This document shows, piece after piece, positions 13,303 to 15,669 of a stretch of 26,993 nucleotides of DNA (positions are counted from its first letter, which is position 1; every line of letters starts with the position of its first letter). This DNA is from a virus. The stretch lies in the IMG/VR virus record IMGVR_UViG_3300046809_000296, positions 1 to 26,993 of that record. The stretch is one strand, 5' to 3'. The notes under the pieces are model-generated. The model was given only the letters and a program-made list of their open reading frames with translations. It made no database searches and was not told the origin of the DNA. A program made the position numbers and the translations under genes.

Positions 13303-15272
13303 TCAGTTAGCAACGAGACGACAAGCCAATTGCGGGCGCAATGCCGCCGCTCCCCAAAGCACATCGATACGGATTGGCATTGTGTCATCTGAAATCGAGT
13401 ATTGACGAACTGCTCGCATACTAATGCCGTCCTTCACTACTCTGGAAGCCATGTCAACGCCTCCGGGCATCACTAAATCCGCAGTCGCGAAAGTAAAAGC
13501 GTCCGGATGAAACGCGAGCGACAGTCCAGTCGCAGTAGAGGCTGTTCCAAGGAATGTCAACGCCGCCGTGGCATTGGCGCTGGGCACAACCACGTTTTGC
13601 TGTGGGCTGCCGATCACGGCGTTGATGGCCGGCGCGATGCTCATATTGCCGCCGCCGCCCGCGTAGGCCGCCGTCAGCACGAACTGCTGGAGCACGCCGC
13701 TGTTGACCTTGGTTTCGGGATGCACGCGGAACACCCCGGCGATGGTGAAGATATCGCCCGCGTTGCCCGCCCCGGTGCCGGTGATGACGGCCAGCGTGCC
13801 GCCGGTGTTCTGACCCGTGGTGATGGCTGTCGTATAGGTGCCGCTCTCGGCGCCGCGCGTCTGCGTGGTGAAGTGCGTTGACTCGGCCCACTCGTAGCCC
13901 GCCGCCAGGCCCATCACGCCGTCCGTGTACTGACGCGCGATCTGCGTTGACTGCTGGAACAAGCCTTTGAGAGCATCCACGAGGTCCACGTTGTCCTGCG
14001 TGTTGATCCTCAACTGCCATTGCTTCGACTGCGGCGTCAGGTTGTCGAGCAGCAACTTACGCGATTGCAACACGGTCTTGAACGTCTGCGCGGCGCCGCT
14101 GACACCCACCTGATTGTAGACCGTGGGCCACATCATGCCGATGCACGTCGCCTCGATCTGGGCGGCCAGGACGGCCATGGCGGGCTCGATGTAACGGGCG
14201 CTGAAGTCGTCAATGGACAGCGTCAGTTCAGCGCTGCTGAACGAGAAATCCACGTGGTATTGATTGGTGATCGGCAGGCTGACCTGCGTTTCCACGGTGT
14301 TTTGCAACGACAACGCCGGGGTGGTGCTGACGGTGTATTGCACCGGCAGGCGGATGCGCAGCGTCGAACCGATCTTGGCGCCCGAGTTGGCGAAGCTATC
14401 ATCATCGCTTGTGTTCGGTCAGATACGCTACGACCTGACCCGCTTTCGCTGCTGCCGATCTCTCGGCAGGCCAGACTATATCTTACTATACGTGTTTCCA
14501 TATGCGCCGCGTGCGGATCATGGTCACCAGGGATTGAGTGACGCCAAAATGCTTGGCGATGCTGCTGTGGCTGCCACCCATGAACCTGATCAACCTGACC
14601 TCCGCGACAGTCAGCTTGGCGTGTCCGTTCCTGGCGCCATGAGCGTGACGGAGTTTACCCGTCATGTCGTCCATGTTGTCCTGAAACGAACCCAGCCGCA
14701 GATGGGCCGGATTAACGCAACGCCGATTGTCGCAATCGTGAAGCACGAACTCGCCATCTGGGATCGGACCGTTGGCCAGTTCCCAGGCAACGCGGTGCGC
14801 GTAAGCGGTTCGACCGCTGGAATGGATCTGGCCATAGCCGTTCGGCATGATGGACCCTGTCCAATGATGGCAACCGCTCTTGTGCGGCGTCACCTTCTCC
14901 GCGAACCGGAGAGCCAATGGTCTCGCTGCTGGCACGTATAGCCCCCGCTTTTCGGGCCGCTTGACCCTACGCCTTTCGGCTAGTCGTTGAACCTTCCGCA
15001 TCATCATACTGGTATTAACCGGCACATGGAAGCGGCTTGGCTGCTGATTGTCCAATCCATCGAACTTTTTGGCTGTCGCGTTTGTCATTTCTGGCTGGCG
15101 CTGTAGCGGCGATGGCTCTAAGGAGTTTCCAGCAATTAACGGGGTTTAACGTCAGCTAGATGGTGGTCAACTGACGGTTTATTGCGCCAATGAAATTACA
15201 TTTCTGATGGAGTATAGCCAGCGCTTTTGCAGTAATCATATTTATAGTCAGGAGGGTATTAGTGGCGGGCAT
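13303..15272 (-). CDS. P22-type major coat protein, split by a group I intron: join of 15272-15170 and 14405-13303
   Basis: The spliced product is a 401-residue capsid protein of the P22 gp5 (P22_CoatProtein) kind. Exon 1 starts at ATG 15272-15270 behind AAGGAT and encodes 34 codons plus one base, ending INRQ. Exon 2 starts at 14405 and gives YDDSFANSGAKIG..., so the junction rebuilds NRQ-YDDSFA, a conserved stretch of this family. Exon 2 alone has no start until a GTG inside the fold, and a stop (14421-14419) closes its frame upstream. Later landmarks are FSSAELTLSIDDFS, YIEPAMAVLA and the family ending RIDVLWGAAALRPQLACRL. The two exon lengths (103 and 1103 nt) sum to 402 codons. Scaffold lies upstream and the gp4-like adaptor downstream, as in P22. 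The 3' quarter and exon 1 are visibly less GC-rich than neighbouring genes. Confidence 0.9.
14406..15169 (-). ncRNA. Self-splicing group I intron (subgroup IA-like, probably IA2) in the coat gene
   Basis: This 764-nt insertion has the four conserved core elements in order: P (AATTGCTGGAAACTCC, 15137-15122), Q (AATCAGCAGCCAAGC, 15049-15035), R (GTTCAACGACTAG, 14992-14980) and S (AAGATATAGTC, 14485-14475 region). GACTA of R pairs with TAGTC of S to form P7; GCCGAAAGGC after R is a P7.1-type hairpin. P1 pairs exon CGTCAGT with intron GCTGACG, placing the U.G pair exactly at the 5' splice site (15170/15169). Near the 3' end are CTGCCGA-GAGA-TCGGCAG (P9) and GGTCAG...CTGACC. The last intron base is G14406. 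The HNH gene lies between R and S, in what would be the P8 loop. Confidence 0.92.
14486..14935 (-). CDS. Intron-encoded HNH homing endonuclease (149 aa)
   Basis: The HNH core is clear: GCHHWTGSIMPNGYGQI, then AYAHRVAWELANGPIPDG, then VLHDCDNRRCVNPAHLRLGS and DNMDDM. Likely metal or catalytic residues are His47, His66, Cys68, Cys73, Asn75 and His78. One C-terminal module (AKLTVAEVRLIR ... TRRIWKHV) is of the same type as the three modules of the free-standing HNH protein. The frame is open up to 15088, but that would run through the intron Q and R elements. I chose GTG 14935 because it lies just after R and P3/P8 5' strands, has GCGGGGGC nearby, and gives the normal short N-terminus for this family. 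The stop (14488-14486) is immediately before the S element. The product probably cuts intronless coat genes near the exon junction and so spreads the intron. Confidence 0.8.
   Translation of the reverse strand: MPAARPLALRFAEKVTPHKSGCHHWTGSIMPNGYGQIHSSGRTAYAHRVAWELANGPIPDGEFVLHDCDNRRCVNPAHLRLGSFQDNMDDMTGKLRHAHGARNGHAKLTVAEVRLIRFMGGSHSSIAKHFGVTQSLVTMIRTRRIWKHV
15170..15272 (-). other. Coat protein exon 1 with its ribosome binding site
   Basis: This short exon encodes the first 34 residues and the first base of codon 35. TAAGGA ends about 8 nt before ATG 15272-15270. The helical peptide (ITAKALAILHQKCNFIGAI) is the usual N-terminal arm of P22-type coat proteins of this group. Without splicing, translation runs into the intron and stops at a TAG about six codons past the junction, so the short product would be non-functional. 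Confidence 0.88.
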
Positions 15273-15305
15273 GGGAGATTATCCTTAGGCGATACTACGG
15301 GAAAG

Positions 15306-15335
15306 GGTTCCTCACCGCAAGCGGTTCTTGGAACC
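15306..15335 (-). other. Stable RNA hairpin upstream of the coat gene
   Basis: The transcript can form GGTTCC ... GGAACC around an inner stem ACCGC-TT-GCGGT, starting 33 nt before the coat ATG. It is followed by CCTTTCCC, not by a T-run, so an intrinsic terminator is unlikely. It could be an RNA processing or stabilising element for the abundant coat message. The 196-nt gap it lies in (15273-15468) contains no ATG-started frame other than coat and no promoter I would defend. Confidence 0.4.
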
Positions 15336-15468
15336 TCGTTCGCCCGCCGTCGCCTTCGTGAAGCCACGCGATCAGCCGGGATACGCACGCCACGCGGTAT
15401 TGTCGGACCCGCTACCCGTTCGGTTCGGCACGTCGCGCGGTGTTACGGCCCGCTGCCCGTAGGCACGA

Positions 15469-15669
15469 TTAGTCCTCGCGTTCTTGTTCTTCTTGCAGGT
15501 GTTCAAGGAAACGAATGCGCGAGTCGAGTTCGTCAATCTCGTCGTCAAACCTGAAAACCCAGGCTGACAACGTATCCAGAATATCGCCTACCGCGGCCGC
15601 CTCCTCCGAACCAAGTCGGGCACGCAGCAGGGCGACCCGTTCATGCAGTTCGACGGTTTCCTTGCTCAC
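15469..15669 (-). CDS. Small acidic helical protein (66 aa)
   Basis: No family is recognised. The protein is almost entirely charged helix with heptad-like leucines and ends in a strongly acidic stretch (EHLQEEQERED), so a coiled coil is likely. The start is GTG at 15669-15667 in a GTGA overlap with the scaffold gene, which couples it to scaffold synthesis. It is the last gene before the gap in front of coat. A helper in capsid assembly or a head decoration or cement role is possible from location alone. Confidence 0.6.
   Translation of the reverse strand: MSKETVELHERVALLRARLGSEEAAAVGDILDTLSAWVFRFDDEIDELDSRIRFLEHLQEEQERED

Follow-up and report, generated by a model that had tools for sequence, protein, structure and literature searches.

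The window, by which we mean the whole 26,993-nucleotide stretch of DNA analyzed, carries a P22-like coat gene whose reading frame is interrupted by an insertion with the features of a mobile group I intron. Portal (P22_portal, E 7.6e-167) and scaffold (phrog_8865, E 4e-11) genes lie upstream, as expected for a P22-like coat. The features of the locus, in the direction of transcription, are as follows.

15170-15272, minus strand: coat exon 1, made up of the ATG, 33 further codons, and the first base of the Y codon in MPATNTLLTINMITAKALAILHQKCNFIGAINRQ-Y
14406-15169, minus strand: predicted group IA2-type intron of 764 nt, 5' end UGACC, terminal G at 14406 (RF00028 match and covariation)
15170-15176, minus strand: P1 exon strand CGTCAGT, its last U pairing with G
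15150-15156, minus strand: P1 internal guide sequence GCTGACG, which co-varies with the exon in relatives
15139-15144, minus strand: P3 5' strand CCCCGT (98% standard pairs and two pairs with double changes across 27 introns)
14981-14985, minus strand: P7 5' strand GACTA (R element), followed by P7.1-GUA-P7.2 (99% standard pairs across 27 introns)
14943-14948, minus strand: P3 3' strand GCGGGG, also the likely Shine-Dalgarno sequence of the HNH gene
14933-14941, minus strand: P8 5' strand CTATACGTG, containing the GTG start of the HNH gene
14486-14935, minus strand: gene for an HNH homing endonuclease, located in the P8 loop; the GTG at 14935 is the probable start, the TAG stop falls in P8, 149 aa
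14486-14494, minus strand: P8 3' strand CACGTATAG, containing the HNH stop codon
14474-14478, minus strand: P7 3' strand TAGTC (S element), from the Rfam match and the alignment of relatives
14452-14469, minus strand: P9 hairpin CTGCCGA...TCGGCAG (100% standard pairs, six of seven pairs with double changes)
13303-14405, minus strand: coat exon 2 including the stop codon; predicted spliced product 401 aa
12210-13268, minus strand: free-standing HNH gene of 352 aa, directly downstream of the coat gene (HNH_3, E 1.3e-6; phrog_59, E 2e-35)

Joining 15272-15170 to 14405-13303 yields a 401-residue frame that reads NRQ-YDDSFA at the junction. This product matches P22_CoatProtein (PF11651) with an E value of 4.7e-27 (95.3 bits against a cut-off of 24), its residues 3-399 aligning to positions 2-422 of the 423-position model and making it a full-length family member, and it matches the PHROG major head protein family phrog_283 at E 3.3e-65. 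An earlier sequence-only reading had placed the missing coat N-terminus, 34 codons plus one base, 764 nt upstream, had proposed this same junction, and had suggested aligning the spliced product with the coat family; its coordinates proved exact and the alignment bore it out. Scanning IMG/VR with the spliced protein returned at least 80 loci, nearly all of them uninterrupted coat genes, and at least 70 or so intronless relatives among the matches listed carry the joined exon sequence. One of these, L003, is 99% identical to the spliced coat and has the exon 1 peptide contiguous with exon 2, as the sequence-only reading had expected of intact homologues. At the DNA level identity to L003 is about 75% in exon 1 and about 90% in exon 2, a contrast that fits a recombination tract. 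The coat gene is preceded by nearly 400 nt of G+C-rich sequence (15273-15660) mostly without an obvious gene, of which about 195 nt can be aligned to the equivalent position in L003 and other intronless relatives; this stretch may be a structured leader. The terminase and portal genes are separated by three genes resembling tail spikes or tail fibres (24318-19226, minus strand), and a further tail-spike-like gene lies at 11195-9141, an arrangement unlike the gene order of P22.

The Rfam group I intron model RF00028 matches 15204-14452 on the minus strand over its whole length (1-253), scoring 61.3 bits (E 1.7e-13) against a gathering score of 50. This search had been proposed along with the original claim that a group I intron splits the coat gene, a claim that now stands on the covariance match together with the intronless homologues and the covariation described below. 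Of the outcomes named in advance as fatal to that claim, those open to computation did not occur. The P, Q, R and S elements, the P7 pairing GACTA/TAGTC, the seven-pair P1 with its U.G, and the terminal G were likewise all found where they had been drawn. The exon 1 tail CGTCAGT ends at 15170 (minus strand) and forms seven P1 pairs, including U.G at the exon end; this P1, the terminal G, and the reading frame jointly set the junction. Between P7 and P3 lies the region GCCGAAAGGC-GTA-GGGTCAAGCGGCCC, forming P7.1 and P7.2, which covary, and P2 is absent. Because P7.1-GUA-P7.2 is the mark used for the Pf-WMP3 intron (PMC3428280), the sequence places the intron in the IA2 type, an assignment made by that criterion as opposed to a curated IA2 model.

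The protein encoded within the intron matches HNH_3 (PF13392; E 1.4e-16, 60.2 bits against a cut-off of 24.8) and phrog_1872 (E 6.4e-32). N70, H78, and their neighbors are invariant in 10 HNH members, with H47 nearly so, and the window's copy has an intact frame holding the residues invariant in the family. The ORF-finder frame opens at ATG 15088 and runs through the ribozyme core; since in relatives the HNH start codon is an ATG or a GTG located in P8, GTG 14935, itself inside P8, is the more likely start, and a GGGGG run in P3 lies ahead of it. Comparison of the HNH family with solved structures by sequence gave no match. The free-standing 352-aa HNH protein contains repeated helix-turn-helix-like units and is a neighbor of the intron, not part of it. 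Coat-adjacent HNH genes occur at 30 of 84 loci among the matches listed, in several separate clades and mostly beside intronless coats. Derivation of the intron HNH from such a gene was considered and found unsupported, with 11 site A and site B intron HNHs (sites defined below) forming one clade apart (support 92/94).

Relatives of the intron occur in the coat genes of about 40 other environmental phage contigs among the matches listed, and the split coats are interrupted at five sites within residues 29-47, in the numbering of the window's coat.

Site A, inside codon 35 (the window's site): L007, L074, L084, L086, L087, L088, L091, L137, L190
Site B, after codon 32: L034, L076, L112
Site C, after codon 29, with a different HNH: L061
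Site D, after codon 47 (GAKIG): L093
Site E, four codons beyond site A, 290 nt, with no HNH: L126

Twelve of these introns (L007, L074, L076, L084, L087, L088, L091, L093, L112, L126, L137, and L190) score above the Rfam gathering threshold; L034, L086, and L061 fall below it, with E values from 2.7e-9 to 1.5e-6. Most introns at the other four sites carry their own matching guide sequence. When the last seven exon bases were compared with the guide sequence within the first 45 nt of each intron, a perfect P1 (seven pairs, U.G at the splice site, terminal G) was found in 14 of the 15 split-coat introns, those of sites A, B, D, and E; for random 7-mers with a final T, the rate of a perfect P1 including the U.G in that interval is 1.3%. 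The remaining intron, at site C, forms five pairs. The guide changes along with the exon at sites A, B, D, and E, as seen in L084 (CGTGAGT/GCTCACG), L034, L076, L112, L093, L126, and L262. Across 27 aligned cores, 97% of P1 pairs are standard, with compensating changes in five of seven, and the corresponding figures for P3, P4, P7, and P9 are 98%, 100%, 99%, and 100%. P3, P7.1, P7.2, P8, P9, and P9.2 also covary relative to controls in which the pairings were slid by 2-3 columns and far fewer pairs formed than in the true register. Five aligned site A introns retain six of the seven P1 pairs, and P5 and P6 as drawn show about 50% standard pairs, probably owing to the register of the drawing.

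Aligned HNH proteins, used to search viral contigs, picked out at least 80 loci, overlapping those of the coat scan in several contigs. The best 37 of these, 48-99% identical to the window's HNH, all reside in coat-gene introns at site A (an automatic junction search placed 27 of them, and inspection the other 10), and the coat proteins of the intron family diverge down to about 40% identity. Among bacterial genomes and prophages, 23 HNH relatives were found in genome contigs, none beside a P22-like coat. In the GenBank phage assembly MW202674.1 (16569-18084, equivalent to L099 2995-4510), about 220 nt with group I-like P7 elements interrupt the coat near residue 100; Rfam reported nothing there at E 0.01, and the P7 elements hint at a sixth insertion site with a group I intron that had gone unrecognised. 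The annotation divides this coat into two CDSs, each called "P22 coat protein", on either side of a small hypothetical protein, the kind of split annotation that had been predicted from the window's sequence.

Nearly the same core, without HNH, was also observed in the major head protein genes of other phages, at L098 6563-6764 (also L096) and twice within one gene in L090 (6713-6486 and 6298-6074), the two protein families involved being phrog_3437 and phrog_1328. A tight search for the core pattern returned capsid genes only, and a looser sample of 120 stretches, screened for P22-like coats alone, contained four such loci; given the scope of that check, we make no general claim that the wider intron type is confined to capsid genes. 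Separately, several contigs (L068 4001-4189, L069-L072, and L017 2865-2996) carry a partial extra coat N-terminus of about 50 residues, 46-52% identical, upstream of a full coat gene.

Evidence for mobility comes from comparing L087 with L088, which are 88-100% identical across the intron and 82-90% identical just after it, falling to 60-77% further out; upstream, identity is 85% over the last 60 nt ahead of the splice site and 63-77% beyond about 60 nt. We read this tract of identity, from the sequence pattern, as the mark of homing with co-conversion. An apparent intron/exon contrast in L237/L239 was dropped as an artefact of a contig end. The window and L084 share 80% identity in HNH and 63% in the coat; for the window and L034 the coats are 88% and the HNHs 63% identical. 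Coat data reject a clade of the window with L084 (AU p 0.017, somewhat generous as the clade was named after seeing the trees), and HNH data reject a single origin of the site B introns of L034 and L076 (AU p 0.0025, also generous for a pair chosen post hoc), so site B appears to have been reached, or left, more than once. A clade of the window with L034 is compatible with the HNH data (AU p 0.19), so more than one route of transfer into this phage is possible.

We consider it very probable that a mobile group IA2-type intron occupies codon 35 of this P22-like coat gene, with splicing and HNH homing as proposed below. The alternative that a free HNH gene landed in the coat gene and broke it, leaving the coat dead or starting downstream, draws on the long downstream frame that opens at GTG 14343 and on the free-standing HNH gene that the phage also has beside its coat; however, the ribozyme core is conserved and covarying, the junctions rebuild the conserved sequence exactly, and exon 1 is intact in about 40 contigs among the matches listed, which makes simple disruption highly improbable. 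An intein or a ribosomal bypass would likewise split a protein-coding gene in a phage, but exon 1 is followed by an in-frame stop (CAGTAA in most relatives), Pfam finds no intein domain, and the insert matches a group I ribozyme, leaving either with a negligible chance of being correct. Although the window is a metagenome-derived viral contig in which an assembler could have joined unrelated reads, the same arrangement at the same codon recurs in dozens of contigs from different metagenomes, by which this scarcely credible explanation is already refuted.

The rival that retains somewhat more weight, yet which we still judge unlikely, is that the intron was once mobile and that this copy is now defective in splicing or inactive in its HNH. 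Homing cycles commonly end in degeneration, and the near-identical L007 carries a substitution in the J8/7 region (AAGATA to ACGATA) that could weaken a given intron copy. Against this, the window keeps consensus R and S elements, P1, P3, P7, P8, and the intact HNH frame with its invariant residues, and the coat is essential, such that loss of splicing should be lethal.

For the favored mobile intron, we propose that the RNA folds within the coat mRNA and is cut after ...CGUCAGU using guanosine and the 7-bp P1, whereupon the exons would be joined after the terminal G of the intron to restore the 401-residue coat. The HNH enzyme encoded in the P8 loop would then cut or nick intronless coat alleles at or near the sequence encoding NRQYDDSFA, and repair would copy the intron with flanking exon into the cut allele, the copying pattern being that observed in L087 and L088. 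With the HNH start and stop lying in P8 and the probable ribosome-binding site in P3, the folded ribozyme should hide all three signals, and HNH translation would consequently compete with splicing. A hidden HNH start agrees with the known regulation of intron ORFs in T4. More tentatively, and on balance doubtfully, P22-like coats may be a long-standing hot spot, in which one ribozyme-HNH lineage would move almost only among these coats, would have had its guide re-aimed to several sites within about 60 nt, and would work with the second, free-standing HNH to make co-infecting phages give up their coat allele or have it replaced.

Capsid-gene introns have precedents. The mycobacteriophage LittleE has an intron of about 819 bp in its major capsid gene, with splicing established by RT-PCR and N-terminal sequencing (PMC3706429). 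It shares with the coat intron a U at the end of exon 1, a terminal G, a homing endonuclease gene, and intronless relatives, but it interrupts an HK97-like capsid, encodes a LAGLIDADG-like endonuclease on the opposite strand, and is described from a single phage (PMC3706429). The lactococcal phage Tuc2009, as cited in PMC3706429, also has a group I intron in a capsid gene, in a different phage group. The Pf-WMP3 DNA polymerase intron likewise belongs to group IA2, with GUA linking its P7.1 to its P7.2, and it encodes an HNH enzyme, I-PfoP3I, that makes its nick 4 nt upstream of where the intron inserts; it differs in its host gene and in an ORF that starts in P6a and spans P7 (PMC3428280), whereas the coat-intron HNH lies in the P8 loop. 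Phage Phi-PA3 likewise has a group I intron with a homing endonuclease, here of the HNH type and in an RNA polymerase gene (PMC11878797); the enzyme attacks an essential gene of a competitor (Science 2024, PMC11620839), a possible model for the coat-gene endonuclease. The Phi-PA3 host gene is not such a virion gene, and the competitive role shown there is conjecture for the coat intron.

The open-access literature we searched describes no intron in P22-like coat genes, although an unseen report is possible, and the family therefore appears undescribed so far. The novelty claimed for the window thus holds for P22-like coats, while its broader sense gives way to LittleE and Tuc2009: the family is widespread and unusually broad, yet capsid-gene introns as such were already known.

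Each virion requires hundreds of copies of its coat protein, so the intron must splice efficiently, and it offers a natural setting in which group I splicing is put to a demanding test by high expression of the gene. In the family, alleles with and without the intron can be matched, a single scaffold carries several different guide sequences, and homing has left a clear footprint. The family is also a warning that environmental P22-like coat genes are receiving truncated or split annotations, which distorts both marker-gene surveys and predictions of capsids.
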